Of a DNA stretch of 48,405 nt, positions 144-14,815 are shown piece by piece. The position numbers and the translations under genes were made by a program. The DNA is from Actinomyces sp. ZJ308 (GTDB lineage: Bacteria; Actinomycetota; Actinomycetes; Actinomycetales; Actinomycetaceae). The stretch is taken from assembly GCF_011752065.1 (NCBI RefSeq), contig NZ_JAAIJY010000027.1:1-48405 (forward strand), read 5' to 3'. A model generated the notes under the pieces. That model was not told the DNA's origin and did no database searches. It saw only the letters and a list, made by a program, of their open reading frames with translations. The stretch's first letter is position 1; each line of letters opens with the position of its first letter.

Positions 144-734
144 TCACTCGAGCCCCTGGGCACCTTCACGGCTCAGCAGAGCGGTCTTCACCGCGGCCCC
201 ATAGCGGAATCCTCCGATACTCCCGTCTGAACGCCGGATCCGGTGACAGGGGATGAAAAGCGCCGCCGCGTTACGCGCGCAGGCTGAGGCCGCGGCCCGA
301 GAAGCGGACGGGTTCCCGCTGAGACGAGCGAGCTCGGTGTAGGTCAGAGTCGTGCCGGCCGGAATCTCTCGCATCCGGGACCAGGCCCGCTCGATGAAGG
401 GGCCACCTGTCTGGAGAACAGGCACCTCTCGGGGCTCGTTGTCCTCACCGCGGTAGTAGGAGCGCACGGCGGCGACGGCGCGCGCCAGGAGCCCGTCGAT
501 CTCCTCGACCGAGCACTCCTTGATACGAGACGGCCTCAGGCTCGGATGGATGAGTCCGGCCAGCTCCGTGGTCTGAGAGGTCCATCCGGAGGCGAGCACG
601 TACTCGGTCCGATCGGCTCCGTCACCGACGCAGTCGTCAGCACCGTCGGCGCCACCATGACCAGTGACGATGGTGAAGGGGCCGTCCGGGGTGCTCACGG
701 TGAAGCTGCGAGCAGTGGCGTTCGTTGTCGTCAT
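144..734 (-). CDS. ogt: Methylated-DNA-[protein]-cysteine S-methyltransferase
   Basis: The 196-residue protein removes O6-alkyl groups from guanine by transferring them irreversibly to its own cysteine, a one-shot cytoplasmic repair protein. The active-site motif IPCHRIRR is at residues 161-168, with Cys163 as acceptor. Upstream is IPAGTTLTYTELARLSG, the usual helix-turn-helix DNA-binding stretch, and downstream GGFRYG matches the conserved G-G-F/Y-x-x-G segment after the active site. Length is usual for Ogt/MGMT with a short acidic N-terminal insertion. In the ancestral arrangement it lay just downstream of ssrA and its terminator on the same strand; the mobile element now separates them. 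Confidence 0.9.
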   Translation of the reverse strand: MTTTNATARSFTVSTPDGPFTIVTGHGGADGADDCVGDGADRTEYVLASGWTSQTTELAGLIHPSLRPSRIKECSVEEIDGLLARAVAAVRSYYRGEDNEPREVPVLQTGGPFIERAWSRMREIPAGTTLTYTELARLSGNPSASRAAASACARNAAALFIPCHRIRRSDGSIGGFRYGAAVKTALLSREGAQGLE

Positions 735-836: not shown

Positions 837-853
837 TCATGGGAGTCGTGGGG

Positions 854-876
854 CTCAGGGTGCACGTGTCGAACTC
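854..876 (+). other. attL junction: core CTCAGG plus right attP arm
   Basis: The core is at 854-859, followed by six bases and the arm GTGTCGAACTC at 866-876. This arm is the exact reverse complement of GAGTTCGACAC at 10602-10612 at the other element end. Chromosomal sequence to the left (ssrA terminator, then ogt) is the displaced downstream flank of ssrA. Confidence 0.75.
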
Positions 877-960
877 ATCCCGGCGCGAGACCACCTACTG
901 CTGGTGACGATCGCTGCGTAGAGCGGCGATGTGGCAGAAGCAGACTGGAGCGCCACTCAT

Positions 961-990
961 TTGACCCGCAGTTGACATGCTTGGTAGAGT
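961..990 (+). promoter_or_regulatory. Possible promoter for the HTH-rep region
   Basis: TTGACC (961-966) and TAGAGT (985-990) are separated by 18 bp, close to sigma-70-type consensus. The predicted transcript would start near 997 and read into the HTH gene and rep with an untranslated leader of about 185 nt. The stretch 877-1180 contains no convincing gene. Confidence 0.35.
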
Positions 991-1180
991 CTGGCGCACG
1001 CACTTTCAAACGAAGCGCCAAGGTGTCGGGTCGCCCGTTGTACGACGAAATCCCAGCTGCCGTCGAATCTTGCAGGGCGGAACTCATCGGGTCGACAGGC
1101 ACAGAAGCACGACGAACCGATATGGCCGTTGCATAGGAGACGTAAGACCGTTCTGGCGAGGTTCACCCACGGGGTGAGTT

Positions 1181-1936
1181 ATGTCTACTACCCAGACGAC
1201 CAACGATTTAGCCGCGCTCTCGGTCCCGGCCACGGGGGCCGCCGCCCTCATCGGTGTCGACCCCCGCACGCTCTCTAACTGGCGCACACAGGGCATCGGC
1301 CCGGCCTTCATGCGCGTCGGTACGCCCCACTCACGCACGCTTTACCGTCTCGATGACCTGCGGGCCTGGCTCAACACCAACCGGATCGAGACACCCACTT
1401 TAGGCGGTGGCACGATGACCTCCGCCGGCCTCTCCCCCGCTGACCCCTGTAGCAGCTTTGACAGCCACTCGTGCAGCGGTTCTGCTACACGTCGTGCTAC
1501 ACCGTTTCCCCTCGAATACCAGGCGAACCGTCGCGAAGTAGCAGAAGCGGTAGCAGTTCGTAGCAGAGCCGCTGCAAGAGCTGCTACAGCGTTCCCCCTG
1601 ACATACCAACCGAAACAGGCCCTTGTAGCAGATGTAGCAGTTTTCGGTAGGTCAATGGCACAGAGATGTTTTCACGTAGAACACGTGCATCTCTGTACCT
1701 TCTGTACCTCCTCGCCTGCTCCTGAGTCTGAAACCGTGCTCTATCAAGGAAAACGGATTACGCGCGCAGGCGCGATTCGGTGGGGTTCAGGTACAGAACG
1801 CGTTACACGGATCTGTACCTCTGTACCTCTTCCAGGTGCAGAAGGCACCGATGCGTACCCGAGGGCTGGGGCCTCACATGACACGGTTAGTGGGTTCCCA
1901 CGTGCCCCACGCTCAGCAGGAAAGGACTCGCCATGA
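1181..1936 (+). CDS. HTH (MerR/excisionase-like) protein with repeat-rich C-terminal region
   Basis: The frame encodes 251 residues. Residues about 15-68 form a small winged helix-turn-helix of the excisionase/HTH_17 type (TGAAALIGVDPRTLSNWRTQ, then YRLDDLRAWL), so it probably binds DNA as an element regulator or excision factor. The remaining two thirds do not resemble a known domain: that DNA is packed with short repeats (GTAGCAG family and TCTGTACCT family) and an imperfect 87-bp in-frame duplication, producing two similar protein segments (ATPFPLEYQ and ATAFPLTYQ, each followed by V-A-x-x-V-A-V). The stop overlaps the rep start (ATGA at 1933-1936), suggesting translational coupling. The start has only a weak GGGGTGAG Shine-Dalgarno. 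The C-terminal part may simply be a replication origin left open in this frame. Confidence 0.55.
   Translation: MSTTQTTNDLAALSVPATGAAALIGVDPRTLSNWRTQGIGPAFMRVGTPHSRTLYRLDDLRAWLNTNRIETPTLGGGTMTSAGLSPADPCSSFDSHSCSGSATRRATPFPLEYQANRREVAEAVAVRSRAAARAATAFPLTYQPKQALVADVAVFGRSMAQRCFHVEHVHLCTFCTSSPAPESETVLYQGKRITRAGAIRWGSGTERVTRICTSVPLPGAEGTDAYPRAGASHDTVSGFPRAPRSAGKDSP
1449..1640. repeat. Iteron-like GTAGCAG repeats (candidate origin, part 1)
   Basis: GTAGCAG occurs at 1449, 1538, 1550, 1560, 1625 and 1634, and its reverse complement CTGCTAC at 1482 and 1581, with a truncated TGCTAC at 1495. That is eight exact copies of a heptamer in 192 bp. Clusters of short repeats directly upstream of rep are typical of Rep-binding or regulator-binding arrays. 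Confidence 0.6.
1496..1617 (+). repeat. Imperfect direct repeat, 35 bp, offset 87 bp
   Basis: Copy one at 1496-1530 and copy two at 1583-1617 share GCTACA-n-CGTT-n-CCCCT-nnn-ATACCA-nn-CGAA. The offset of 87 bp is 29 codons, so the copies are in the same reading frame of the HTH gene. The pattern suggests a tandem duplication of an iteron-bearing unit. Confidence 0.6.
1660..1696. other. Hairpin at candidate replication origin
   Basis: ACAGAGATG (1660-1668) and CATCTCTGT (1688-1696) form a perfect 9-bp inverted repeat with a 19-nt loop containing CACGT and ACACGTG. It lies between the two iteron families and runs straight into the TCTGTACCT repeats. It could be a nick-site hairpin for the downstream Rep, but no known nick sequence was recognised. 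Confidence 0.4.
1692..1828. repeat. Iteron-like TCTGTACCT repeats (candidate origin, part 2)
   Basis: The nonamer TCTGTACCT occurs in tandem at 1692-1700 and 1701-1709 and again at 1812-1820 and 1820-1828 (sharing one base). Its reverse complement AGGTACAGA is at 1789-1797, and a one-mismatch copy AGGTGCAGA follows at 1834-1842. The array ends about 90 bp before the rep start. Confidence 0.65.
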
Positions 1937-3231
1937 GTGACAGCAACATGATCGACCTCTTGGAGGACAAGCACCCAGTGCGTGTCTACAAGTTCGTTCA
2001 GCACCTCGATGGGACGGACTGGACTCTCGACGCTCTGGAAAAGGGCTTCAGCCACCGCACCATCAAGGGCTGGGCCTGGATTCTCCATGACCAGGACGTC
2101 GGTACCGATCACGTCCACGTCCTGCTATGGACCCACAAGGAGATCAGCCCGGAGGTCCTCGCCTCGTGGTTTGCATTGCCCGGCCCGCAGGCCCAGAAGG
2201 TGCGCGGCGGCAAGGCCGCGATCAAGAATGAGCTCGACTACATGCGGCATCAGGACCGCAGTTCACAGGACCTCGGCAAGGTCCGTTATCCCGACTCGGC
2301 GATCCGCACCGTCCCTGGCTGGGACTGGTTGGCCTTCGACCGGGAGATGGATGAGCGCCGCATCCTGTCGGGTAGCAGTCGGCAGCGTTCCCGCAACGTC
2401 GCGCAGGCCATGAGCAGAGGTCTTTCGGTGAGGTCTGCACTCACGCGCTCGACGACGACGGAGACCCGTCTGCGTCGTGCTCGGGCGCGCTACCTCCTGG
2501 CGCAAGAGCCGCCGCTGTTTCGGCTCGCGTTCTACATGTACGGCAGTGACGCCCTTCTCGTGGACGCGATCGGCCAGGGTCTCGCCGAGGCACTGGCAGG
2601 GGGTCATGATGAGGTGTTCGTCGCCAAGGACGGCATTGACGAGTACGACGGGGAGCGCGTCCTCTACTGGAACACATCCACGTCTGAACTGGTCCCAGGA
2701 GATGACCTGCGAGGTGCCGCACTGGTAGCGGCACTTGACGTGTTCCCAAGCAGGACGCCGGTCAGCACGAGGTTCGGACACACCCAGCTCATCCACGAGT
2801 TCACCGTCATTAGCGGCACACAACCGTACCTCAGACCGAAGGCGCCCCTAGGCGGTTTTCGCGAGTTCTTGGAGGCGATGATGAACCACTTAGCACCCGC
2901 ACGTCTGCCGGTCCTCGTCCTTGTGAGCACCGACGAGTTGGAGGTTCAGGTGAACGCCGGACTCCTCGACGAAGGCACGTTCGACCAGTATCTCACCCTG
3001 GGACGTTTTCGGATGAACCTCCACAAGGTTCTCGCCCATGCCCGCGGTCTTCCCGAGAAGCAGCGTCGTGCCGTCGAGCGCGACGCCACCCGGCGGCAGG
3101 TCGCGCCGGTCCTTGAGGCCAGGGATCGGGTCATTGGGGCGCTCACCCCGTCTGACTCCCCTGCTGGAGAGAGCCTGCCAAGCGCGCTGGAGCATTTGCT
3201 CGCCGAGATGGGTGAAGAGGTGGCCACATAA
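1933..3231 (+). CDS. rep: Rolling-circle-type replication initiator (Rep_2-like HUH)
   Basis: The 432-residue protein has an N-terminal HUH endonuclease signature: HDQDV at 52-56, then HVHVLLW with His60 and His62, and YMRHQD with candidate nucleophile Tyr103, the order found in pMV158-family (Rep_2) initiators that nick the double-strand origin. The region beyond residue 150 is much longer than in small pMV158 Reps; no Walker motifs were recognised there and its role is unknown. A good Shine-Dalgarno (AGGAAAGG) precedes ATG 1933, which overlaps the stop of the HTH gene. Repeat arrays immediately upstream are the likely origin or control region. Rep in an integrated element suggests replication after excision, or descent from a plasmid. 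Confidence 0.75.
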   Translation: MSDSNMIDLLEDKHPVRVYKFVQHLDGTDWTLDALEKGFSHRTIKGWAWILHDQDVGTDHVHVLLWTHKEISPEVLASWFALPGPQAQKVRGGKAAIKNELDYMRHQDRSSQDLGKVRYPDSAIRTVPGWDWLAFDREMDERRILSGSSRQRSRNVAQAMSRGLSVRSALTRSTTTETRLRRARARYLLAQEPPLFRLAFYMYGSDALLVDAIGQGLAEALAGGHDEVFVAKDGIDEYDGERVLYWNTSTSELVPGDDLRGAALVAALDVFPSRTPVSTRFGHTQLIHEFTVISGTQPYLRPKAPLGGFREFLEAMMNHLAPARLPVLVLVSTDELEVQVNAGLLDEGTFDQYLTLGRFRMNLHKVLAHARGLPEKQRRAVERDATRRQVAPVLEARDRVIGALTPSDSPAGESLPSALEHLLAEMGEEVAT

Positions 3232-3302
3232 CCCGCAGTACCCGCCCGTCAAGTGAGCAAACCGAGGAAACAGACCAACCAGTAGCCGAAAGGAAAGTCA
3301 CC

Positions 3303-3584
3303 ATGAGCACCACCAACCTTGAGCGGCTCATCGCCGACGAGCAGCGCAAGCACGCTGAGCGTCTCAAGCGCCTACGCACGCAGGCCGAGAAGCAGGAGAA
3401 GATCCTGTTCCAAGAGATCGCGCGCCTCCTACGTGCCCAGGACCCTGAGCGCTTCGAGCAGTACGCCGAGCACGTCAAGCAGCAGCGTGAGGCCGATCGC
3501 CAGGCGCGATCAGAGCGTGCGGCTGCCTCGCGTGCTCGGAAGAAGGCTGAGACTGGCAGTGAGGACGGTGGCCGGTATGAGTGA
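3303..3584 (+). CDS. Small coiled-coil protein of the mobilization module
   Basis: The 93-residue, highly charged, almost entirely helical protein (heptad-like stretches from residue 5 to about 80, rich in Glu, Lys, Arg, Gln and Ala) is preceded by a strong AAAGGAAAG site before ATG 3303. No catalytic motif is visible. Its position between rep and mobC suggests an accessory of replication or of the relaxosome, but this is context only. The end overlaps an alternative upstream start of mobC (ATG 3577) by 8 nt. Confidence 0.65.
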   Translation: MSTTNLERLIADEQRKHAERLKRLRTQAEKQEKILFQEIARLLRAQDPERFEQYAEHVKQQREADRQARSERAAASRARKKAETGSEDGGRYE

Positions 3585-3726
3585 CGCATGTCTGAACCGG
3601 CTCGGCGTCGCGAACACTGCATTGTCTGTCCCTGCCTCGGGCGCCAGGCAGGTAGGGGTGGCGTCCTCCTCGCCCACAGGGAGCGAAGCGAGCGAGGACG
3701 AGGGCCAGCGCACGGATGGAGGACAC

Positions 3727-3817
3727 GGGAGCTTGCTCCCGATGTCCGACACCGTGCCTGCTGGCGCCATGAACTTCCACTCGCCCACCGTGCTCAGTAC
3801 TTCGGGTGGAAGTTCAT
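3727..3817. other. Candidate origin of transfer (oriT)
   Basis: Two inverted repeats lie just upstream of the conserved part of mobC. One is GGGAGC-TT-GCTCCC at 3727-3740. The other is a perfect 12-bp repeat, ATGAACTTCCAC (3769-3780) with GTGGAAGTTCAT (3806-3817), around a 25-nt loop. Relaxase target sites usually consist of such an inverted repeat beside the nick site, placed next to mobC/mobA. The nick itself was not identified. Confidence 0.55.
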
Positions 3818-3834
3818 GTGAGCCTGCCCCAACG

Positions 3835-4212
3835 ATGCAGAAGAAAGCACAGGGGGCAGGCTCACGGGTGACCCTCGACGCACATCTCGATGTGAGGGTC
3901 ACCCAAGACGAGCGCGAGGCCGTCAGGCGTCGCGCGAGCACGCTCGGCGTGAGGCCGAGCACGTGGACGAGAGCCATCCTGCGCGACGCGCTGGACGAGC
4001 GTCGCCACGAGGTCGAGGCGCTGGCTGCGCAGGCGGCTGTGCCAGAACCCGCGCCAGAGCTCACTCGGCTTACTGAGCAGCTGCGTCGGGTTGGGGTGAA
4101 CCTCAACCAGACCAGGCGCGCCGGTGACGCGGTGGACAGCAGCCTCTTGCACGACGTCCTGGCGGCGGTCACCGAGATACGTGCGTACCTCGGTGACGGG
4201 GTCTCGCTATGA
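3835..4212 (+). CDS. mobC: MobC-like relaxosome accessory protein
   Basis: From ATG 3835 the protein has 125 residues. It begins with a ribbon-helix-helix-like segment (TLDAHLDVRVTQDEREAVRRR) and ends with the MobC signature: LTEQLRRVGVNLNQTRRAG matches the conserved L-x-x-I/V-G-x-N-L-N-Q pattern. MobC proteins bind oriT and help the relaxase open the strands. The frame is open further upstream, with another ATG at 3577, but residues encoded between 3577 and 3834 are low-complexity and that DNA holds the oriT-like hairpins, so the shorter form is preferred; neither start has a strong ribosome site. The stop overlaps mobA (ATGA 4209-4212). Confidence 0.75.
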   Translation: MQKKAQGAGSRVTLDAHLDVRVTQDEREAVRRRASTLGVRPSTWTRAILRDALDERRHEVEALAAQAAVPEPAPELTRLTEQLRRVGVNLNQTRRAGDAVDSSLLHDVLAAVTEIRAYLGDGVSL

Positions 4213-5447
4213 GCACGGTCAACGTCCAACCCACGACGAGCGCACGAGCAGCCGTCACCTACGCGTTGCTGGGCACCGGCAAGCGCAGAGCACAGCACAC
4301 AGCCGACGGCACAACGCGCGCGGCGGCGCTGTCGTGTTCTCTCAGGTCGGTCGAAGAACTCATCCTGCGAGCGGAGCTAGTCTCGGCAGCGCTGGGTCGT
4401 CGCAACGAGATGTACACGTACACGCAGAACTTCTCGCCCGAGGAGTTCGACGTTAGGAACCCCGAGCACGTGCAGCGCGTGCACGAGCTGGGTGTCATGC
4501 TCGCGAAGCGAATGAACACCGCAGACCACCTCGTGGTCACGCACACCGACAGCGCGGGTGGTCACGTGCACAACCACATATACGTCATCAACCACGACAA
4601 CCTCACCGGCAAGGCGCTCACACGCTGCCGGTCGTGGTCGCGCGGTCTACGCCAGGTCAACGACGAGCTCATGCGTGATGAAGGATGCCAGGTGCTCCCA
4701 TCGCCCGAGGCTCCCAAGCCGGACTGGGACCTACGACGCGGCGCGTTCAAGGACGGCGGCTTTGAGCAGGTGCTCGGTGACAAGATCGCCGAGGCGCTGA
4801 TGGATGCTCGTTCTGTTGACCGCGGGGCCTTCGAGGAGGTCCTAGCCGAGCACGAGGTACGGCTGCGTGTCACCGATCGTGACGGGTGGACCTACTCGAT
4901 GAGACGAGCAGACAACGGCAAGTGGGGCAGGCGCAAAGCCTCGTCCCTGTGCGACGAGTTCACAGCATCGGGCGTCCAGCCCATTTTCGAGTACCACGCC
5001 AAGAAGATGAAACACAACCCACGTATGAAAGGAAACCATAATGGGGCTTCTCGAACAGATGAGGGAGCAAGACGACTGGGACGCATCTACGGAGACCTTA
5101 CCCAACTTGATCTCGAGGTTCGACAGCGTAGAGCAGCATCTATCCAAGCTCACAAAGCACATCTCGGATCAGACGGCCTACATGAAGAGCGCCGACGAGA
5201 ATACGGCAACACAACTGGAGAGTCTGTTAACCTCGCATCCAAACGAGCAGCACTTGACCGAGTTCGTCGAGATGCGGAGCAGGCTGAGCGAGATCGAGAA
5301 GACGATCGTCGCCGTCTCCGAAACGCTCACCGCATCACAACACGTGACACTCCCCAACGGCACGACCATACGATCAGCAGATTTTCAGGCCTACAACTTG
5401 ACGCAGGGAATCAACAACCAGCTCAAGACGATGGTTTCGAGCTGTGA
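4209..5447 (+). CDS. mobA: MobA/VirD2-family relaxase
   Basis: The 412-residue relaxase would nick oriT and pilot the single strand during mobilization. The HUH metal site is clear: HTDSAGGHVHNHIYVIN with His112, His119, His121 and His123. Tyr18 in AAVTYALLG fits the N-terminal catalytic tyrosine position of MOB_P-type relaxases. The C-terminal third is charged and helical with no primase or helicase motif recognised. It starts inside the end of mobC (ATGA), implying coupled translation. Its last 407 nt are also read in the +1 frame by the following gene, an arrangement like the nested mob genes of ColE1-type plasmids. No secretion or coupling ATPase is nearby, so the system is mobilizable rather than self-transmissible. 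Confidence 0.85.
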   Translation: MSTVNVQPTTSARAAVTYALLGTGKRRAQHTADGTTRAAALSCSLRSVEELILRAELVSAALGRRNEMYTYTQNFSPEEFDVRNPEHVQRVHELGVMLAKRMNTADHLVVTHTDSAGGHVHNHIYVINHDNLTGKALTRCRSWSRGLRQVNDELMRDEGCQVLPSPEAPKPDWDLRRGAFKDGGFEQVLGDKIAEALMDARSVDRGAFEEVLAEHEVRLRVTDRDGWTYSMRRADNGKWGRRKASSLCDEFTASGVQPIFEYHAKKMKHNPRMKGNHNGASRTDEGARRLGRIYGDLTQLDLEVRQRRAASIQAHKAHLGSDGLHEERRREYGNTTGESVNLASKRAALDRVRRDAEQAERDREDDRRRLRNAHRITTRDTPQRHDHTISRFSGLQLDAGNQQPAQDDGFEL

Positions 5448-6000
5448 TCATCTTGCTAAGGAAGTCCGTCAACGCGGCACCGTTCGCATCAATACCGACA
5501 AGCTCACCCAGCATTGCGTTGGCGTCCTCGATAAACGACTAGCGCTGGCCGTCGAAGGCCCTTTACGGCGTCTCGAAGAAAGATTGGACGATCTCGAGAG
5601 ACGCGTGTCCTCTCTGGGCGCGAAGGAAGTCTCTCGTGCTGTCGGCGAGGTTGAGCGGGTAACCGCCAAAATCGATGAGCTGATGGAAGCGATGCGAGAC
5701 GCCGAGCTTCGTATTGACAGGCTCTCAGCCCGGGTGACCTGGGTGAGCGCAGGACGCATGTGTCTTGCGCTGCTTCCACTTGCCGTCGTGCTTCTGGTGG
5801 TCGGAGGCCTGACCTTGGGGGCCTTCCACGCACTCGGCGTGGGCCCCATTCTGGGCTGGGCGTGGGCATCGTTCGCAGCGGCTCAGGCATGGTGGGCCAA
5901 GGCATTAATCGCACTGGGGACGCTCAGTTGCGTTGCGGTCTTCATATGGCTCGTCGGGAGGGCCTCGCGCTGGATCGCCGATGAGTACGCGCGCTGGTAG
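5041..6000 (+). CDS. MobB-like coiled-coil membrane protein overlapping mobA
   Basis: The 319-residue protein begins inside mobA in the +1 frame. Its start is well marked by AAAGGAAACCATA before ATG 5041. Residues about 1-230 are largely coiled-coil (for example EGPLRRLEERLDDLERRVSSL), and residues about 237-307 contain two hydrophobic segments separated by a Trp/Ala-rich loop. The plan, helical cytoplasmic region plus C-terminal membrane hairpin, matches MobB-type accessory proteins that link relaxase to the membrane or coupling protein. No sequence motif identifies it, so the role is inferred from position and architecture. It ends just before a strong terminator. Confidence 0.72.
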   Translation: MGLLEQMREQDDWDASTETLPNLISRFDSVEQHLSKLTKHISDQTAYMKSADENTATQLESLLTSHPNEQHLTEFVEMRSRLSEIEKTIVAVSETLTASQHVTLPNGTTIRSADFQAYNLTQGINNQLKTMVSSCDHLAKEVRQRGTVRINTDKLTQHCVGVLDKRLALAVEGPLRRLEERLDDLERRVSSLGAKEVSRAVGEVERVTAKIDELMEAMRDAELRIDRLSARVTWVSAGRMCLALLPLAVVLLVVGGLTLGAFHALGVGPILGWAWASFAAAQAWWAKALIALGTLSCVAVFIWLVGRASRWIADEYARW

Positions 6001-6023
6001 CAATAACGACGCACAGAAATAGC

Positions 6024-6059
6024 GGGGCCCTGAGACCGTTGCGACGGTCTCAGGGCCCC
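6024..6059. terminator. Bidirectional terminator between mob operon and cargo
   Basis: A perfect 16-bp stem (6024-6039 with 6044-6059) and TGCG loop sits between two convergent genes: mobB-like (ending 6000) and the membrane protein (ending 6083). Confidence 0.85.
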
Positions 6060-6082
6060 GCAGACACCTTCGTGGAGCCAGG

Positions 6083-6781
6083 TCACATTGTTGTGAGCAG
6101 GTGGATCGTCTGGCCGGCGGCCAGAGAGATTAGTGGAAGGAATCCTCCTAGAGGTGAGAACGAGATGACGATCATGATGCCTGCTGTGATGGCGCTTCTC
6201 TTCGCCAGGGTGCGTAGCGGCAGGTCGAGCTTCGTGGCGATAAAGCCGAGTAGCACAGCGGGGATGGCCCAGATCAGAGTGGGGTTGATGAAGGAGAAGA
6301 TGAAGCCCGCGACGTACAGGGGGTTGTCCTCGAGCACTTCTTCGGTGGTGGTGCCCTTGAGACCTTCGATCATCATGTCGAGCCCGAGCACATCGGATAT
6401 CGTGGCTAGGGTCAGGCAGAAGGCACCTACCGCTACTAGGCCGGGTGCGAGCTCTCTAGCCTGTCGCCCCGCCGGGCTGTCCCATTGAGAGCGTAGCCAC
6501 ACCCAGAACCGGCTGTTGCAGGCGGCCTTGGTGATGATCAGTGACACAGGGACGAAAGCCACCGCCAGAATGACTATCACCGCAAGCGCGGCCGGGAAGA
6601 TGACATCGCGATCGGGGTCGATCCCCATCACAGGTCTACCTGCGGCGACGATGTTCGCGGATATCACATCTATTGCCCTGAACTCCACGGCGACCAGTGC
6701 GATCCACACGAGCATCAGGGCCCACCACCGCTTACGTAGCACGCGACTGAGCGTCCAGGTGCGGGGCTGTGCACTTCTCAT
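6083..6781 (-). CDS. Polytopic membrane protein of unknown function (element cargo)
   Basis: The 232-residue protein has about five or six hydrophobic segments: around residues 22-42 (WWALMLVWIALVAVEF), 60-85, 105-128, 150-175 and 190-230. No enzyme, transporter or exclusion motif was recognised. ATG 6781 is preferred over an upstream start nine codons earlier because GAGGAG lies at the right distance. It follows the lipoprotein gene by 40 nt on the same strand, so the two are probably one operon under the divergent promoter at 7756. Function is unknown; surface exclusion or an envelope-linked defence or toxicity role are possibilities without direct evidence. Confidence 0.7.
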   Translation of the reverse strand: MRSAQPRTWTLSRVLRKRWWALMLVWIALVAVEFRAIDVISANIVAAGRPVMGIDPDRDVIFPAALAVIVILAVAFVPVSLIITKAACNSRFWVWLRSQWDSPAGRQARELAPGLVAVGAFCLTLATISDVLGLDMMIEGLKGTTTEEVLEDNPLYVAGFIFSFINPTLIWAIPAVLLGFIATKLDLPLRTLAKRSAITAGIMIVISFSPLGGFLPLISLAAGQTIHLLTTM

Positions 6782-6821
6782 CTTTGCTTCTCCTCGTGGG
6801 CACCTCAAGGGCCAGTTGATC

Positions 6822-7721
6822 CTACTTTTTCTTGAGCCAGTTGCCCGAGGTGTCTCGCTCGTACTTCTTGGTCTCGTTGTTGACGAATCCGATAGTGCCG
6901 TCCTGCATCACGGTGATGCCGATCTCGGCGATATCGTCGCGGTGCTTGCCGTCGTACATCCGGAAGGTCATGTCGGTGGCGGCCGATGTGTCATCGAAGC
7001 TCGTAGCGCAGGACTCCACGATGGTGAAGCTGCTCGTGGAAGTCATGTACAGGCCCCTCTCGGGGTTGGACTCACTGAGCTTTTTGTTATCAAAGACGTC
7101 TTTCCTCCCCGGAAACAGGAAGGCAGCCACGTTCTGTGCGGGCGTTTTCTCCTCACCGCTACTGGTGCTCTCCTGCTCGAGCTCGGCCCGACGGGTGCTG
7201 AGCTCAGAGGCGCGGGCCTTGGTCTCCCGCTCGATCGCTGCGTCACTGGCCTTCTCACCGAGTTCCTCCTCGACATCCTCGCGGATCTCGTCCTCGGTGG
7301 CACCCCCGAACTCCTCGCGCAGCTGTTCATCGACGTTCTTGGCTCGCTTCGTCGCCTGCTGCTCCTTGGTCTGCTCGGGCGCTGACGCGACGACCTCGCC
7401 GCCACTTGCGTAGGTAACCGCGCCATCGACGGCGCACATACTCGATGAGTCGAGCTTGTGCGCGGTGAAGGTGACGCCGGTGACGGGAACCTGGTTGCCG
7501 TCCTTGGTGACGACGTCGATAAGCCCCTGAGGCAGCTGGGCAGTCGCTGTGCCCTTGGAGACGAAGTTGCTCAACGAGGCGAACTCGTAGACCTGGGCTG
7601 ACGGGCTGCTCGCACCGCCTGAGGCGCCGCCGGACGGAGCGGTAGCGGCTGAGCACCCAGCGAGCGACACAGCACCTACGAGCAGGGCAAGAGTCAAGAC
7701 GGTTCTGGAGGGACGGGACAT
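6822..7721 (-). CDS. Secreted lipoprotein with charged coiled-coil middle (element cargo)
   Basis: The 299-residue product starts with a classical lipoprotein signal: MSRPSRTV, a hydrophobic core, then the lipobox LAGC with the modified cysteine near residue 23, followed by a Ser/Gly/Ala linker. A region of about 75 residues in the middle is very rich in Glu, Lys, Gln and Ala (REEFGGATEDEIREDVEEEL) and probably a coiled coil. The flanking segments hold two cysteines (SSSMCAVDG and ESCATSF) that could form a disulfide. The frame continues upstream of ATG 7721, but that part overlaps the divergent operator and lacks a signal peptide. Family not recognised. Likely co-transcribed with the downstream membrane protein. 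Confidence 0.72.
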   Translation of the reverse strand: MSRPSRTVLTLALLVGAVSLAGCSAATAPSGGASGGASSPSAQVYEFASLSNFVSKGTATAQLPQGLIDVVTKDGNQVPVTGVTFTAHKLDSSSMCAVDGAVTYASGGEVVASAPEQTKEQQATKRAKNVDEQLREEFGGATEDEIREDVEEELGEKASDAAIERETKARASELSTRRAELEQESTSSGEEKTPAQNVAAFLFPGRKDVFDNKKLSESNPERGLYMTSTSSFTIVESCATSFDDTSAATDMTFRMYDGKHRDDIAEIGITVMQDGTIGFVNNETKKYERDTSGNWLKKK

Positions 7722-7755
7722 AGGGGTACCTCGATTCGGTTGGTGGTTCAGGACG

Positions 7756-7814
7756 ATCATACGGAACTCATCGCTTCCTGTAGAAGCGATGAGTTCCTGG
7801 AATCGATGGATTCC
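7756..7814. promoter_or_regulatory. Divergent operator/promoter between XRE regulator and lipoprotein operon
   Basis: A perfect 15-bp inverted repeat, GGAACTCATCGCTTC (7763-7777) and GAAGCGATGAGTTCC (7783-7797), has a 5-nt spacer. A second small palindrome, GGAATC-GATG-GATTCC, is at 7799-7814. On the minus strand TATGAT (7761-7756) could be the -10 box for the lipoprotein gene with a weak TCTACA -35 at 7784-7779, so the large palindrome would overlap that promoter. It is a natural binding site for the adjacent XRE protein. Confidence 0.6.
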
Positions 7815-8075
7815 GCCTCTCACGATGGGGACGTGGCGACATCGTTGAGGCAGCGGCTTGGCGCGAATCTGCGCGCCGAGCGTCGTCGCCGTCAGCTCAC
7901 GCAGGAGGACCTGGCTGAGCGGCTTGGGGTGACAGCCCGCTACCTGGGCGGTATCGAGCGGGCGGAGCGCAACCTGACGCTCGACTCCGTTGACGCCTTG
8001 GCCCAGGACCTCGGGATCGACGCCCTGGACCTGCTGGCCAACACGCCCGCAGAAGGGCCGATTCAACGCCCGTAG
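7806..8075 (+). CDS. XRE-family transcriptional regulator
   Basis: From ATG 7806 the protein has 89 residues, mostly a single Cro/C1-type helix-turn-helix: LGANLRAERRRRQLTQ, EDLAERLGVTARYLGGIERA, then LDSVDALAQDLGI. It is a DNA-binding regulator with no effector domain. Starts at TTG 7740 or GTG 7833 are possible; 7806 keeps the large palindrome outside the coding sequence. The gene is divergent from the lipoprotein/membrane-protein pair, and the palindrome between them suggests it represses that operon and itself. The end overlaps the convergent small gene by 13 bp. Confidence 0.8.
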   Translation: MDSASHDGDVATSLRQRLGANLRAERRRRQLTQEDLAERLGVTARYLGGIERAERNLTLDSVDALAQDLGIDALDLLANTPAEGPIQRP

Positions 8076-8302
8076 AGACGCTGAAGGACAGCCGGGCTCG
8101 GACTCAGCGATGAGGCCACGGCGCTCCAGCTCATTGCCTCGAACTCGACCAGCTCACGCACGTGGACAGCGATCGCCACATCCACAGCGTCACGCAGTGC
8201 CGCCAGGCTGCGCAGCTCAGACTCCCCCACTGAGAAGTGGGGGTCCTCATGTTGGACATGGAAGGCCGCGACATGGGCCCGGGCGTGCTCATAGGTCTTC
8301 AT
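8063..8302 (-). CDS. Small hypothetical protein downstream of ardA
   Basis: The 79-residue soluble protein is helical with a long Val/Ala/Leu-rich stretch (LAALRDAVDVAIAVHVRELVEF) and a possible C-terminal helix-turn-helix (MSWSAVASSLSPSPAVLQRLYG). It starts 11 nt after the ardA stop, so it is probably translated from the same mRNA. Function unknown; the C-terminal segment may be a small DNA-binding fold. Confidence 0.55.
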   Translation of the reverse strand: MKTYEHARAHVAAFHVQHEDPHFSVGESELRSLAALRDAVDVAIAVHVRELVEFEAMSWSAVASSLSPSPAVLQRLYGR

Positions 8303-8313
8303 GCGCCCTCTCC

Positions 8314-8859
8314 TCAGAAGTCGCGGAAGACGAAGACGCCGCCACCAGAAGCATCAACGATGGTGAAGTCGTGCCGGCAGTCGCACTCGTACCTGTCCCA
8401 GTCGAAGTACCGGACAGCTTCCTCCGACCACTGGCAGAACACGCCACAGTCGTCGGCCCAGGACTCCACGAACTCGCGGAACGAGTCCCAGCAGCCCTGA
8501 TCGGCCTCCTCGAACTCTCTGGCCGATGGCACGCCGTTGACATCCAGGGAGGGTGAGCAGTTCTCGCACCAGGCGAGAAACTCTTCCCAGCGGTCAACCC
8601 CGACGTCGACGAGGATCTCGCCCCAGGCAGCCGCCTGCGACTGCGAGATCTCACTGACACCACGTGGGAGGTAGTCAGAGTCAAGTACGACCACTTCTTC
8701 GCAGCCTGGGTAGACATGCTGCCGGCCTCCGTGGACCTCGGCGAGGGTCACCTCTTCGACCATGTCACAGGGGAACCAGCAGCCGACCAGGTGGCCACTG
8801 TTGTTGCAACTCAAGCATCCGAGCCACACAGCGGGATGAACACAGGTGTTCGTTGTCAT
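8314..8859 (-). CDS. ardA: ArdA-family antirestriction protein
   Basis: The 181-residue acidic protein mimics DNA and inhibits type I restriction enzymes when a mobile element enters a new host. It begins with VWLGCLSCNNSGHLVGCWF, matching the ArdA pattern of a short strand followed by a Y/C-N-x-G-x-L-x-G-x-W segment. It ends with the WDSFREFVESW...CDCRHDF...GGGVFVFRDF region, corresponding to the family's conserved C-terminal part. The net charge is strongly negative (many Asp and Glu), as needed for B-DNA mimicry. GGGAGG precedes ATG 8859. It is the first gene of a two-gene operon. Family assignment rests on motif recognition, not on a search. Confidence 0.75.
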   Translation of the reverse strand: MTTNTCVHPAVWLGCLSCNNSGHLVGCWFPCDMVEEVTLAEVHGGRQHVYPGCEEVVVLDSDYLPRGVSEISQSQAAAWGEILVDVGVDRWEEFLAWCENCSPSLDVNGVPSAREFEEADQGCWDSFREFVESWADDCGVFCQWSEEAVRYFDWDRYECDCRHDFTIVDASGGGVFVFRDF

Positions 8860-9053
8860 TGGAACCTCCCAAGTAAGGGGAGGTCAGGCTGCGGCAGTCC
8901 AGTCTCGGTAAGGACGCTCACGGGGACAGCCCGACCTCCATTACCAACCTCGGGCCGTCGGCGACGGCCCCTGCCCCGCCCCATGCCCTGACGTTCAGGG
9001 TGGCGACCACGCCGTAGGATCGTTGATGAGTTCGACTGGACAAGGAGCGAATT

Positions 9054-10694
9054 GTGAGGTCTATGCCCACGTACAACGACAATCAGATGGTCGTCGCGTA
9101 CTACCGGTACTCCTCCTCTTCCCAGAACGAGGCCTCTATCGAGCAGCAGCGCGAGATGGTCCACCGCTGGGCGAAGTCGCAAGGTCTCGTCGTCGTGAAC
9201 GAGTACGAGGACGCAGCCAAGACCGGCACCAACGCCGACCGGCCTGGCTACCAGCTCATGCTGCGCGAGCTCCCGAAGATCAAGCCCGCCTATGTCGCGG
9301 TGTGGAAGAACGACCGTCTGGCACGCAAACGCGCCGAGCTGATCCTGGTCAAGCAGACAATCCGCAAGGCCGGTGCCCGTGTGCACTACATCGAGGGAAT
9401 CTCCCCCACCGACTCACCCGACTCGATCCTCATGGAGGGCGTAGCGGACGCCTTCGCCGAATACTACTCGCTCCAGCTCTCAGCCAACATCCGACGAGGC
9501 CAGCGGTACAACGCCGAGCGGGCGCTGAGCAACGGCCACAAGATCTTCGGCTTCACCGTGGATACCGACAAGCGCTACATAGCGGATCCGGAGACCGCGC
9601 CCATCGTCACCCAGATCTTCGACGACTACGCCCACGGCATCTCAATGCAGAAGATCGCGGATCGCCTGAACGCCCAGGGTATCCGCACGATCCGTGGGTA
9701 CCAGTTCACACCCAAGAACCTGAACAAGCTCCTGAAGAACCGCGTCTACATCGGTGAGTACTCCTTCGGGGAGCATGTCATCGAGGACGGTATGCCCCGC
9801 CTCGTCGCCGACAACGTCTTCGAGCAGGTCCAGCGCAGGTTCGCAATCAACAAGCGTCGCGGGGCCAAGACGAAGGCCGAGCTGGCCGCCCAAGGAGAGG
9901 AAGCGCCCGACTACTGGCTCACAGGGCGAATGTACTGCCTGACCTGCGGGGGACCGATGGAGGGCGTGAGCGGCACGTCCAAGACAGGCCGGACCTATCG
10001 CTACTACTACTGCCTCAATCAGCGCAAGAAGAAGTGCTCAGCCAAGACGGTGCGCAAGGACGAGATCGAGACCCGCGTCACGGAGATCATCGAGTCCTTC
10101 CTCCATCAGCCTGACATGCTGGCCTCGTTGGCTGTCGACTTGGCCGACCACTACCACGAGACCCACGAGCGCGGCGATGAGATCCTCAATGCGCTGGAGG
10201 CCCGCAGAAGAGATATTGAGACCAAGCTCGCCAACTTCGTCAAGGCGATCTCCCAGGGGATCTTCAACGAGTCGACCGCTGAGGCCATGAACGCCCTGGA
10301 GGCCCAGAAGCAAGAACTCGACGCCGCGATCCAGACCGAGCACGTCAAGGCTGCCCTCTTTGAGGACAAGGTCTCAATCGGAGCGTTCTACAAGAGGTTT
10401 GCCGAGGCCACGATCGACACCGTCGACACGCGCGACCGACTGTTCGACTACTTCGTCGACAAGGTCTTCGTCGGGCGGAACCAGATCGTCATCGCGTCCT
10501 ACTACTACGACAGCGAGAAGCACATCGAGTTCGAGGACCTGGAAGAGACCCTTCTCAGCGGGGACAGAGCAGGGGAAGTGCGAACCTATGCTCGAAAGCA
10601 CGAGTTCGACACTTCCCCCTCAGGTGGAGATGGGGGGAATCGAACCCCCGTCCGACGGGCGCACAACAGGACTTCTCCGGGTGCAGCTCGCTAG
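9054..10694 (+). CDS. int: Large serine recombinase (site-specific integrase)
   Basis: Start GTG 9054 follows AAGGAG at good spacing; 546 residues in the integrated state. The catalytic domain carries the Y-x-R-x-S signature (YYRYSSSSQ) with Ser20 as nucleophile and KNDRLAR later. A recombinase domain follows (NGHKIFGFTVD, then KNLNKLLKNRVYIGEYSFG), then a zinc ribbon with MYCLTCGGPM and a second Cys pair (YYYCL and KKCS), then a coiled-coil stretch (residues 375-440). It would join attP to the 3' end of ssrA. Codons up to 10622 belong to the element; the last 23 residues are antisense tmRNA sequence. In the excised circle the frame would instead run 92 residues into the left end, stopping at 1134-1136. 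Confidence 0.92.
   Translation: MRSMPTYNDNQMVVAYYRYSSSSQNEASIEQQREMVHRWAKSQGLVVVNEYEDAAKTGTNADRPGYQLMLRELPKIKPAYVAVWKNDRLARKRAELILVKQTIRKAGARVHYIEGISPTDSPDSILMEGVADAFAEYYSLQLSANIRRGQRYNAERALSNGHKIFGFTVDTDKRYIADPETAPIVTQIFDDYAHGISMQKIADRLNAQGIRTIRGYQFTPKNLNKLLKNRVYIGEYSFGEHVIEDGMPRLVADNVFEQVQRRFAINKRRGAKTKAELAAQGEEAPDYWLTGRMYCLTCGGPMEGVSGTSKTGRTYRYYYCLNQRKKKCSAKTVRKDEIETRVTEIIESFLHQPDMLASLAVDLADHYHETHERGDEILNALEARRRDIETKLANFVKAISQGIFNESTAEAMNALEAQKQELDAAIQTEHVKAALFEDKVSIGAFYKRFAEATIDTVDTRDRLFDYFVDKVFVGRNQIVIASYYYDSEKHIEFEDLEETLLSGDRAGEVRTYARKHEFDTSPSGGDGGNRTPVRRAHNRTSPGAAR
10572..10618 (-). terminator. Large hairpin at element right end, possible replacement ssrA terminator
   Basis: GGGGAAGTG (10572-10580) pairs with CACTTCCCC (10610-10618). 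Pairing continues CGAAC (10581-10585) with GTTCG (10604-10608) past one bulged A, and an inner TGCT-CGAA-AGCA mini-hairpin closes the loop. On the minus strand it starts 6-7 nt after the mature tmRNA 3' end, where the lost terminator should be. It lacks a clear U tract, so termination is inferred. It also overlaps the left attP arm and the integrase 3' coding end. Confidence 0.45.
10602..10624 (+). other. attR junction: left attP arm plus core CTCAGG
   Basis: The arm GAGTTCGACAC (10602-10612), six bases, and the core CTCAGG (10619-10624) are followed immediately by the tmRNA acceptor stem. It is the mirror of the arm at 866-876. The tmRNA CC end lies inside the core, so the crossover leaves the mature RNA sequence unchanged. 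Confidence 0.75.
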
Positions 10695-10992
10695 CGATTT
10701 TCTCGGCCCCGGCGTCTCACGCGAGCAAGGACGCCGACGGGCTCAGTCGATAGAGAGTCCCAAGAGCCCTACCGACACGGGCTCTCAGCAGTGGCTTCCT
10801 AGATGACGCCAGGAACCGGGGCGGAAGCGCTCCCCGGGCTGACGGACTTCGAGGCTCGCTCAGGCGGCGAGGGCGAAGTCGGTGCGAGTGTTATCGGCAC
10901 CTATTGGTTCGCGCAGAGCGTTGACGAGATGACTGCGCATCCTCGACCCGCTTCTCCTGAACCTACGACCGTCGTCGAAACCGATCATCCCC
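10625..10992 (-). ncRNA. ssrA: Transfer-messenger RNA (tmRNA)
   Basis: The RNA is read leftwards. The 5' end GGGGATGATCGG (from 10992) pairs with the 3' acceptor strand CATCTCC (10632-10626) through seven pairs including one G-U, and the T arm has GGGGG-TTCGATT-CCCCC just before it. The tag reading frame at 10898-10863 encodes ADNTRTDFALAA followed by TGA, with the usual ALAA degradation signal. Length is about 368 nt. The CCA is not fully encoded (ACCT), so CCA addition is needed. A possible -10 box TAGGAT is at 11058-11053. Together with SmpB it rescues stalled ribosomes. Its 3' end is the insertion site of the mobile element, which has displaced the terminator. Confidence 0.95.
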
Positions 10993-11174
10993 TGTGGACT
11001 TGTCACCGGTCTCCCGAAGGGGGCCGGAACATGCTCCCGATGGAGCCAAACAATCCTAGCAGCACAGAGGGGTGAAAGCACCGGGTCATGGATGCTCAGC
11101 GTGTCACACGATCATGCAGCCGGGGCTTCCGGGACGGGCATCTCACAGACGGAACGCCACGGCCGTCCGTCCTC

Positions 11175-11711
11175 TCAGCCCCGACGCCGGTTTGCTGCCG
11201 CCATGGCTCGGGCGGCCTCCCGCTTGTCCTGGGCCTCACGCAGTGCCTGGCGCTTGTCCCAGTCCTGCTTGCCTCGCGCCAGGGCGATCTCCAGCTTGGC
11301 GCGTCCACCGATGAAGTACAGCTCCAGCGGAACCACGGTGTAGCCCTTGGCCTGGACCCTGGTCTCAAGGCGCTCCAGCTCGGTGCGGTGCAGGAGGAGC
11401 TTGCGCTTGCGGCGTGGGGAGTGGTTGTTCCACGTCCCTTGCAGGTACTCGGGAATGTGGGCGCCCTGGAGCCAGGCCTCACCGTGGCGGTCGATCTCGA
11501 CCCAGGCCTCAGTGAGCGAGGCGCGCCCCATGCGCAGTGCCTTGACCTCGGTACCGGTCAGAACCAGCCCCGCCTCGTAGCGGTCCTCGATGAAGTAGTC
11601 GTGGACGGCCTTGCGGTTACGAGCCACTGTCTTGTGGGCGTCGGAGGCGGCCTTGGCCTTCTGCCCAGCGGTGGGCTTAGGAGCCCGACCGGACCTTGCT
11701 CCAGGAGTCAT
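11175..11711 (-). CDS. smpB: SsrA-binding protein SmpB
   Basis: The 178-residue protein binds tmRNA and delivers it to stalled ribosomes. Typical SmpB sequence is seen throughout: ARNRKAVHDYFIEDRYEAG, VLTGTEVKALRMGRASLTE, then EAWLQGAHIPEY and HSPRRKRKLLLHRTELERL, with the basic C-terminal tail (KQDWDKRQALREAQDKRE) that enters the decoding centre. It has an Ala/Lys-rich N-terminal extension of about 25 residues, common in actinobacteria. It lies immediately upstream of ssrA on the same strand, the common arrangement. Confidence 0.96.
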   Translation of the reverse strand: MTPGARSGRAPKPTAGQKAKAASDAHKTVARNRKAVHDYFIEDRYEAGLVLTGTEVKALRMGRASLTEAWVEIDRHGEAWLQGAHIPEYLQGTWNNHSPRRKRKLLLHRTELERLETRVQAKGYTVVPLELYFIGGRAKLEIALARGKQDWDKRQALREAQDKREAARAMAAANRRRG

Positions 11712-11872
11712 CGGCCTGTCCTTTCACGAGTACGGGATTCGAGCGCGCCCGTGTCAGCACGGCCCGAGGCGTTCTCAAGCAGCCCTCTGGTCCCTGACCC
11801 GGCCGCGGAACCACGGCGTGGCACGAGGATGCGCAGGCTCAGGAGTTTACGGGGCGCGTCAAGACGACTCGA

Positions 11873-13189
11873 CTAGAAGCCGGGCAGAGACATCGGGTCG
11901 ATGTAGACCCCGTCCTGAGCCACCTGGAAGTGGACGTGCGGTCCCGTTGCGTAACCGGTCGAGCCGGTGGAGCCGACGACGTCACCGCGGTTGACGTACT
12001 GACCGTCGGCAATGGTGCGTCCCGAGAGGTGGCACAGAGTGATGACGTAGGAGTGCCCGTCGATGATGCCACCGTTGATGTCGATGCCGATGCCGCAGGA
12101 CTCGGAGTTCCAGTAGGTGGCCACTCCGGAGACGGAGGCGTACTGCGGTGTTCCCTCACTGGCAGCGAAGTCGACCCCCTGGTGCCCGGTTCCGGTTCCG
12201 GTGACCGGGTGAACGCGGTAGCCGAAGGGCGATGTCACCTCGAGCGGACCGGTGATCGGGTGACCGATGTACCCGTCTCCCAAGGAGTCTGAGGCGATCG
12301 AGCTGGAAGGAACTGATGGCATCGTACCGGCGCTGGCCGCAGCCCGGTTGGCGGCGTCGATCTCGGCGACCCGAGCGGCCGCTGCCGCTGCATCGGCGTT
12401 GGCCTGGTCGAGCTGAGCCTGCAAATCACTCTTACGGCTCTCCAGCGCTGACGCGGCTGCCTGCTTATCAGCAGCCAGCTTGGCGACCTCGTCCCGCTTG
12501 GTCTGGGCTGTATCCCGAGCAGTCTTGGCATTCGACTCAGCGGTGTCGGCCTCGGTCTTGAGCGTCCCCACTCGCGTTGTAGCGGCGTTCTGCCTGGCCT
12601 CACGGTTGGCGTTCTGAGCGCGCTCGACCTCGGCGGCGGAGAGAACCGCCTCCTGGACCCCTGAGCCGATCTCGACGGCGGAGGCGCGTTGGTTGAGGTC
12701 CTCGACGTCCTGTGAGGCGAGGACATAGCTCCAGGAGGTGACCGAGTTGTCACCCTGGTAGGTGGACACCACGATCTCCGCCACGGAATCCGAGGTCTCC
12801 GAGGCGGTCTTCTTGGACGCCTCCGACTCCTGCTTGACCGTGTCGAGACTGCTCTGCGCCGTGGTCAGGCGGTCACTCGCGATCTGCTGCTCCCTCTCCT
12901 TCTCGGCCAGGGTGTTCTCGGCACTGGTCAGCTCATCCTCCGCGGCGGTCAAAGAGTTCTGGGCGTTCTGCAACGAGATGTAAGCCTGTCCCAGATCGGC
13001 GCTGACCCCCTCGAGGGAGGAGATAACCTCCTGCTGCTTGCGCTGCGCCTCGTTCTGGTTCGCGACGGCGTCATCGCGTTCATCAGCCAGGGAGATGTCA
13101 CCGGAGTAGAAGAAGGCGAGGCTGGCGGCGGCCAGGGCGCAGATCGCGGCGCGTCGACGCGAGTGGCGAAGGGACAGGCAAGACAGCAT
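11873..13189 (-). CDS. Secreted M23-family murein hydrolase with coiled-coil (EnvC/PcsB-like role)
   Basis: The 438-residue protein has an N-terminal signal peptide (AAICALAAASLAFFYSG), about 250 residues of coiled coil (LEGVSADLGQAYISLQ through the Ala/Lys-rich stretches), a Ser-rich linker and a C-terminal lysostaphin-type M23 domain. Zinc ligands are visible in HQGVDFAA (His and Asp) and GPHVHFQV (His). The domain contains SPFGYRVHPVTG, typical of active family members. It lies 6 nt downstream of ftsX in an ftsE-ftsX operon, which strongly suggests that FtsEX activates it across the membrane to split septal peptidoglycan, as for EnvC, PcsB and RipC. Those partners differ in domain type; here the hydrolase is M23 with no visible loss of metal ligands. 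Confidence 0.88.
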   Translation of the reverse strand: MLSCLSLRHSRRRAAICALAAASLAFFYSGDISLADERDDAVANQNEAQRKQQEVISSLEGVSADLGQAYISLQNAQNSLTAAEDELTSAENTLAEKEREQQIASDRLTTAQSSLDTVKQESEASKKTASETSDSVAEIVVSTYQGDNSVTSWSYVLASQDVEDLNQRASAVEIGSGVQEAVLSAAEVERAQNANREARQNAATTRVGTLKTEADTAESNAKTARDTAQTKRDEVAKLAADKQAAASALESRKSDLQAQLDQANADAAAAAARVAEIDAANRAAASAGTMPSVPSSSIASDSLGDGYIGHPITGPLEVTSPFGYRVHPVTGTGTGHQGVDFAASEGTPQYASVSGVATYWNSESCGIGIDINGGIIDGHSYVITLCHLSGRTIADGQYVNRGDVVGSTGSTGYATGPHVHFQVAQDGVYIDPMSLPGF

Positions 13190-13195
13190 GTGAGA

Positions 13196-14113: not shown

Positions 14114-14125
14114 AGTTCTTCTCCT

Positions 14126-14815
14126 TCAGCGGTCCGAGCCGTAGACACCGCGGTCCTGGTCGCGCACGACCTCACCGCCCTTGAGCTCGATGACGCGTTT
14201 ACGCATCTGGTCAACGATCTCGTCGTCGTGAGTCGCCATGACGACCGTGGTCCCCTGCCGGTTGATGCGGTCGAGCAGACGCATGATCCCGACCGAGGTT
14301 GAGGGGTCCAGGTTTCCGGTGGGCTCATCGGCAAGGAGAAGCTTGGGCCGGTTGACCATGGCGCGGGCGATGGCGACGCGCTGCTGCTCACCCCCGGAGA
14401 GCTCGTGCGGGAGACGCCTCTCCTTGCCTGCCAGCCCCACAAGGTCGAGGGCCTCCGGCACGGCGGAGAGGATGTAGTGGCGGGGCTTACCGATGACCTG
14501 GGACGCCAGCGCCACGTTCTCCAGGACGTTCTTGTTCTCCAGGAGCCGGAAGTCCTGGAACACGAAGCCGATCTCCCGGCGCAGCTGAGGCACCTTCCAT
14601 GAGGAGATCTGCGACAGGTCGCGTCCCAGGACGTGGATGCGTCCCTTGGTGGGGCGCTCCTCACGCAGGACAAGACGCAGGAAGGTCGACTTCCCTGAGC
14701 CCGAGGCGCCCACGAGGAACACGAACTCGTCGCGGTTGACCTTGATGTCGACGTCGTCAAGTGCCGGACGCGCCCCGCGTTTGTAAACCTTCGATACGTG
14801 GTCGAAGCGGATCAT
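14126..14815 (-). CDS. ftsE: Cell-division ATP-binding protein FtsE
   Basis: From ATG 14815 the protein has 229 residues, the typical FtsE length; the frame extends 16 codons further up but GGGAG supports this start. Walker A is GASGSGKST, the Q-loop FVFQDFRLL, the signature [14 protein letters not shown], Walker [13 protein letters not shown] and the switch ATHDD. It powers FtsX in the divisome. First gene of the ftsE-ftsX-M23 operon. The prfB gene that often precedes ftsE in actinobacteria is not here; a divergent hypothetical gene is. Confidence 0.95.

Follow-up and report, generated by a model that had tools for sequence, protein, structure and literature searches.

An integrative element at ssrA of Actinomyces sp. 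ZJ308 whose attachment site appears to lie inside its own serine integrase gene

Serine integrases are used as genome-engineering tools, and the basis of their one-directionality is still being studied. Here we describe an element carrying such an enzyme in Actinomyces sp. ZJ308, where a stretch of 48,405 nucleotides (contig NZ_JAAIJY010000027.1; this whole stretch is called the window) contains a 9,776-bp insertion next to ssrA, the gene for transfer-messenger RNA (tmRNA). The ssrA islands of Dehalococcoides, as described in the accessible part of their report, are likewise of mobilizable type and inserted at ssrA by a serine recombinase, the CcrB-like DsiB (PMC3146451). They differ from the present element in that their insertion point was inferred to lie in the T-loop, that they have a direct repeat of 20 bp and that DsiA is present as a second recombinase; trimming of the integrase is not reported in the accessible part of that source (PMC3146451). 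In the window, by comparison, we found a 4-bp core at the acceptor end and neither T-loop insertion nor a 20-bp repeat, and the integrase scored 104 bits against the NCBIfam CcrB model, whose cut-off is 900, reaching none of the CcrA, CcrB and CcrC cut-offs. A first-pass annotation, made from the letters of the window alone, had called a serine integrase at ssrA less usual; it is indeed unusual, but the Dehalococcoides islands are a precedent (PMC3146451).

Two other groups of enzymes invite comparison. The integrase of Listeria phage A118 resembles ours in being a large serine enzyme with an attP (the element's attachment site) of about 50 bp, an attB (the host's) of 41 bp, a GG crossover and half-sites unequal in strength, going by the accessible text (PMC3556126); its solved structure aligns to position 470 of a 521-position family profile and has no counterpart of the tail discussed below. 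Integrases that split their own gene are, in the part of a review available to us, exclusively archaeal tyrosine enzymes (PMC8371274). These suicidal, SSV-type integrases likewise have attP inside the integrase gene, which is split on integration, but they are tyrosine recombinases whose N-terminal and catalytic parts become separated, whereas here only the C-terminal tail of a serine integrase would be lost (PMC8371274). Among the titles and abstract openings that our literature search covered, with most subscription journals outside its reach, none dealt with a serine integrase whose gene contains attP. In the Myxococcus phages Mx8 and Mx9, attP lies within int and the C-terminus is altered after integration; their integrases are tyrosine enzymes. 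The reading we propose from sequence comparison is that a serine integrase inserts the element at ssrA through a GTGG core, with attP lying inside int. We put the probability of this anatomy and reaction at roughly 0.88, a figure that excludes any directional switch.

Insertion at ssrA and the crossover core

In the window, an ogt-like gene is followed by the inserted block and then by ssrA on the minus strand.

144..734, minus strand: ogt-like gene, left chromosomal neighbour, an open reading frame (ORF) with a homologue near empty ssrA
848..851, no strand: GTGG, left copy of the crossover core, common to the empty sites and both junctions
849..10624, no strand: the element, 9,776 bp, bounded by means of empty sites
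854..859, no strand: CTCAGG, left copy, element sequence and not core, not in empty sites
9054..10694, plus strand: large serine integrase with Pfam Resolvase (PF00239), Recombinase (PF07508) and Zn_ribbon_recom (PF13408) domains, read-through frame
10619..10624, no strand: CTCAGG, right copy, element sequence and not core, not in empty sites; CTCAAG in the second copy, L031
10624..10627, no strand: GTGG, right copy of the crossover core, antisense of tmRNA CCAC
10623..10992, minus strand: ssrA (tmRNA), called by ARAGORN and intact next to the element, with T-loop GTTCG 13 bp from the central GG

ssrA was present in 49 of the 49 genomes searched in the genus, and 30 loci were fetched, including the window's own. 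No element arm lies within 40 bp of the ssrA end in 28 of the other 29 loci; the exception is a second copy of the element, L031. In the nearest empty sites, TGGAGATGG is preceded by either [GA]AGTCG or AATTTG, and CTCAGG is missing. The left flank in the window reads GGGAGTCGTGG and then GGCTCAGG, while the right end reads CTCAGG and then TGGAGATGG. GTGG, located at the end of the tmRNA acceptor stem (GTGG/CCAC), is the sole sequence common to the empty sites, the left junction and the right junction. When joined at TGG, the window flanks aligned to the empty locus L036 at 83% over 224, the junction being free of gaps; against the empty locus L044 the alignment has a gap of one base immediately outside the core. 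The L031 flanks, joined in the same way, were identical to L044 (genome G026) at 224 of 224 bases. A homologue of the ogt-like gene (76-77% identity) adjoins the empty ssrA in L036 and L044 and also stands beside the L031 copy. By these alignments the element is real and precisely bounded, and the predicted empty ssrA site of the window's host is GTCGTGGAGATGG.

The first-pass annotation had rightly seen a bounded mobilizable element in ssrA, but placed its left edge 5 bp too far in, at 854 instead of 849. It had also noted a CTCAGG repeat, which is present at 854-859 and 10619-10624, and had taken it for the crossover core. Because only GTGG is common to the flanks and the empty sites, and because the L031 ends differ (CTCAGG at one, CTCAAG at the other), both CTCAGG copies belong to the element. 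CTCAGG as core would require GGCTCAGGTGGAG in the host's empty site and is refuted by the empty sites of congeners; with 63 occurrences of CTCAGG in the window, two strands counted, a 6-bp repeat is weak evidence in any case. Instead of an empty site joining 853 directly to 10619, as the annotation had expected, the congener empty sites place the join in GTGG. It had named junctions falling elsewhere in other copies as a finding that would tell against it, and this came about in part, the other copies joining at GTGG.

An attachment site within the integrase gene

With all three domains above the Pfam cut-off in one long protein, the integrase is a large serine recombinase. Its ORF runs up to the junction, where the native codons stop at the core, the remainder being tmRNA antisense in the integrated state. 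The last ~23 codons lie at the far end of the element and are joined to the gene only in the circle, a placement of attP inside the integrase ORF that the first-pass annotation had missed.

850..921, plus strand: stranded integrase tail GAQGARVELIPARDHLLLVTIAA plus stop, sharing the int frame only in the circular form
866..876, no strand: attP arm GTGTCGAACTC, its CGAAC 18 bp from the central GG
10602..10612, no strand: attP arm GAGTTCGACAC, its GTTCG 17 bp from the central GG

The integrated enzyme reads through the core into tmRNA antisense and ends in ..DTSPSGGDGGNRTPVRRAHNRTSPGAAR (546 amino acids, aa), whereas the predicted circle form ends in ..DTSPSGGAQGARVELIPARDHLLLVTIAA followed by a stop (547 aa), with the tail GAQGARVELIPARDHLLLVTIAA; the predicted circle form of the L031 integrase is ..SGAQGARVELIPAQDHLLLVALSA. 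Homologous tails stand at the far ends of other elements, namely GSVELFFIKNEFALVYRFGDAL in L071, L072 and L087, GSVELYFVRNELALVYRFADDY in L068, and GAQGARVELRAFR.. in two loci, L182 and L183, that cover L065 and L066 more fully. Both ends could be located for 12 elements, and in all 12 the core is read in the same phase from either side, the frame being fixed on the integrase side by the integrase sequence and on the far side by homology of the tail (for L075, whose gene is frameshifted, in the frame of the C-terminal part). Since attP lies inside the serine integrase gene, integration would sever a coding tail and trim the enzyme. The locus thus has what defines a suicidal integrase, an attP inside a gene that is severed on integration; it lacks the tyrosine recombinase and split-off catalytic part of the archaeal SSV type, its domains being intact after integration.

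The perfectly inverted 11-bp arms of the first-pass annotation were recovered and are more than chance would give: when the element's own DNA was joined at random, arms like these arose in 13 of 200,000 trials. Its 40-bp attP and the dyad centre on the CA of CTCAGG fall because CTCAGG is not the core: the corrected attP measures 51 bp and its centre lies in TGG. Of its 17 paired positions 13 match, a score equalled by 15 of 6,900 window stretches, so that a symmetric, serine-integrase-like attP is supported after the core correction. In this site, inverted GTTCG/CGAAC motifs flank a central GG at 17-18 bp on each side; a sister group, which is inserted in the opposite orientation, has a central CC. 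Allowing one mismatch, and resolving ties in favour of 17 bp, we found the motif 17 or 18 bp from the CC/GG centre in every attP half measured. The same spacing was seen on both sides of 16 free sites, and six free sites (L090, L094, L098, L099, L101 and L157) show an 18/18 symmetry. For host halves derived from tmRNA or tRNA, the T-loop motif stood at 13 bp in 14 of 14, two with one mismatch. As is characteristic of large serine integrases, attP is thus longer than attB, with its motifs farther out (17-18 versus 13 bp). An offset of ~5 bp between attP and attB motifs is usual for these enzymes, and the 4-5 bp shift here fits.

Relatives, free forms and element contents

Relatives of the integrase, mostly remote, were detected in 44 of 99 relative genomes at E 0.001; at 1e-40 they were found in 13 of 200 genomes of the family, including the window's own, which has one match to the integrase. 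A species-level collection yielded 23 loci. On plasmids we found no DNA match, and all integrase matches were below 60% identity. The integrase at ssrA reported by the first-pass annotation recurs: its end adjoins tmRNA in 10 loci (the window, L031, L032, L066, L067, L080, L188, L189, L190 and L192) and tRNA-Ala in three (L065, L194 and the relic L034). In the L034 relic (genome G021, 8272-8430), a tRNA-Ala (GGC) gene adjoins an attP arm and the final 37 codons of an integrase; here a related element has left its remains at a tRNA instead of a tmRNA. In a second group the integrase points away and the RNA gene lies at the opposite end. This gene is tmRNA in L068, L070, L071, L072, L075 and L086 (with odd tag peptides in L070, L072 and L075), and in L078 it is tRNA-Ser. 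L074 and L087 have a tmRNA-like 3' end that ARAGORN did not report. The two element orientations are accounted for by the opposite GG/CC polarity.

Several loci merit separate mention. Two elements seem to have piled up at a single site in L068 (Actinomyces bovis, 3705-14697): beyond a type A element by ssrA lies a ~3.2-kb remnant whose far end, with tail VELIPARDRVLLV, is of the window type. L071 and L087 (about 1905-11560) carry a 9.66-kb element that is 97.9% identical between Massilioclostridium coli and Collinsella provencensis, which suggests recent transfer between phyla. At L186 (3040-3100), a window-type integrase end enters a tmRNA-like 3' end that is shortened and that ARAGORN did not report; the site may be damaged or secondary. 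For the L067/L184 element, the far end was searched for and not found.

The same anatomy was seen in free forms. In Dulem virus 37, a circular complete genome record, the annotated integrase is uninterrupted with attP internal: it contains GTTCGACCAGCG, 24 bp with CTCCACC, CGCTGGTCGAAC and then codons to the stop. A viral scan with alignment A1 returned no relative and one with alignment A2 returned 405, of which 80 were kept; these 80 loci, some near duplicates, included 9 with the ORF cut by a contig end, leaving 71 with an uncut ORF end. The pattern TTCG-N18-NN-N17/18-CGAA occurred near the integrase ORF end in 46 of the 71, inside the ORF in 45, compared to 7 of 603 body windows. The central bases of the 46 sites were CC in 31, GG in 6 and other in 9, and the GG sites are similar to the window's polarity (TGGTGGAGC in 5, CAGTGGAGC in 1). 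An open dyad search near phage integrase stops was swamped by terminators, and core-anchored and motif-spacing tests were used for this reason. In the core-anchored test 11 of 17 sites fell below 5% of body windows and 6 did not; the L123 core is probably misplaced, and four further sequences had no TCCACC-like core. We examined 43 of the 80 viral C-termini and took 20 as whole reading frames, with lengths of 507-528 aa.

Besides the integrase, the element encodes the following proteins.

1181..1936, plus strand: HTH_17 excisionase-like protein (Pfam 1.4e-6; PHROG excisionase/regulator 2.7e-6)
1933..3231, plus strand: putative Rep, weakly supported (one plasmid match to 'Rep family protein', 23% identity)
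3850..4212, plus strand: NikA/MobC-like mobilization protein (Pfam NikA-like 8.6e-8)
4209..5447, plus strand: relaxase, MobA/VirD2-like (Pfam Relaxase 8.8e-13)
8314..8859, minus strand: ArdA antirestriction protein (Pfam ArdA 2.3e-13)

No conjugation genes were found among the element ORFs scanned, and with relaxase and integrase present, the gene content supports classification as an integrative mobilizable element. Where the first-pass annotation listed Rep, MobABC and ArdA, Pfam bears out ArdA, the MobA relaxase and the NikA/MobC-like protein; 'MobB' has no convincing family match, and Rep hangs on the single plasmid match, with none in Pfam, NCBIfam, PHROGs or PDB. The HTH_17 protein is a possible directionality factor; in L031 its frame breaks after about residue 71. 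The compact family proposed by that annotation gains a full member in L031 (genome G011), which occupies the same site in another species, spans 9,796 bp and carries the same genes, with an integrase 93% identical. The mobilization block looks mosaic, because the MobC-like protein and relaxase (window 3850-5447) are 61-62% identical to those of L031, compared to 79-93% for other genes. Membrane- or lipoprotein-like ORFs on the minus strand (6083-8066), without family matches and about 88% identical in L031, are probably cargo.

Possible roles of the severed tail

None of the solved integrases listed aligns beyond position 470 of the 521-position profile, which makes the tail an addition. Among free members, tails come to a similar end, share a hydrophobic pattern and keep the frame open. 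Strong protein-level selection had seemed indicated by the window and A. bovis ends, where the first codons showed third-position changes only, but the signal weakened over all 24 codons (6, 6 and 14 differences by codon position). Taken together, constraint on the tail is only moderate; a role in integration or synapsis, lost after integration, may be supposed by analogy with phiC31 but is unproven. Tentatively, and at somewhat less than even odds, we suggest that the tail-bearing circle enzyme integrates, whereas the trimmed enzyme would be poor at integration and mainly excise together with a directionality factor. In phiC31, according to the accessible part of the source, changes in the coiled-coil hinge often hurt integration more than excision, and the directionality factor attaches to the integrase at the base of the coiled coil (PMC5814800).

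A number of observations weigh against our reading. The tail changes faster than the body, with third-position differences making up ~49% of those in the tail (57/117) and ~68% of those in the body (1,265/1,859), in comparisons of which some pairs share sequences, and its codon-position bias is weak in several comparisons. The 12 elements of the phase test include close relatives, and independent cases are nearer six or seven. The site pattern is missing in 25 of the 71 viral loci, 4 of these without a usable frame, and 10 of the 23 species-level loci could not be placed at an RNA gene. Where the host half lies outside an RNA gene, the motif stood at 13 bp in none of the 12 tested; three had something at 17 or 21, with L087 exact at 17. 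Finally, no assembled case of the circle-junction pattern was found in 213 genomes of the family.

The faster change of the tail, and its position beyond the structure-aligned part (to 470 of 521), would also be expected if attP overlaps the 3' end of int merely for compactness, the tail being dispensable and both enzyme forms acting alike. Against this neutral overlap, the frame stays open to a similar end, with a hydrophobic pattern in common, in the 20 free members (507-528 aa), and the phase across att is kept in 12 of 12 elements; we give it close to an even chance. That the trimmed enzyme is instead inactive, and excision needs a full-length enzyme from a related element, has an archaeal precedent (PMC8371274, accessible part) and would suit the damaged copies at L032 and L192 (partial, with stops), L075 (frameshift), L080, L086 (partial) and L190 (stops); however, the resolvase, recombinase and zinc-ribbon domains are intact in the integrated window copy, unlike in the archaeal split, and we regard a suicidal enzyme as improbable. 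The version of the first-pass annotation, a CTCAGG core in a 40-bp attP centred on its CA, can point to a repeat at both ends and arms symmetric about it, but empty sites without CTCAGG, the CTCAGG and CTCAAG ends of L031 and the 224/224 match, which needs a TGG join, leave it virtually no room.

In the reaction that we propose, with attP inside int, the zinc domain of the integrase would read the T-loop motif, and the 4-5 bp difference in spacing would tell attP from attB. Integration would sever the tail and excision would restore it, while the relaxase and the NikA-like protein may allow transfer via the conjugation machinery of another element. On a broader and more speculative view, which we consider possible though somewhat short of even odds, bacterial elements and phages harbour a widespread clade of large serine integrases with attP inside the integrase gene itself, the universal T-loop of tRNA and tmRNA as attB motif, and a C-terminal tail swapped upon integration. 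Circle- and chromosome-encoded forms of the enzyme would then set the direction of the reaction, placing the commitment step in gene structure, and a CC/GG swap would reverse the orientation at the same target.

The anatomy is well supported; what trimming means for regulation is a proposal. Caution is due with integrases annotated from integrated copies, as they end in chromosomal residues and not in their own C-terminus. In this family integration itself would alter the enzyme, and nature offers matched pairs of tail-bearing and trimmed integrases for a direct test. Moreover, the T-loop rule would give a simple account of how serine integrases use tRNA-like genes, and it predicts both site and orientation from sequence.

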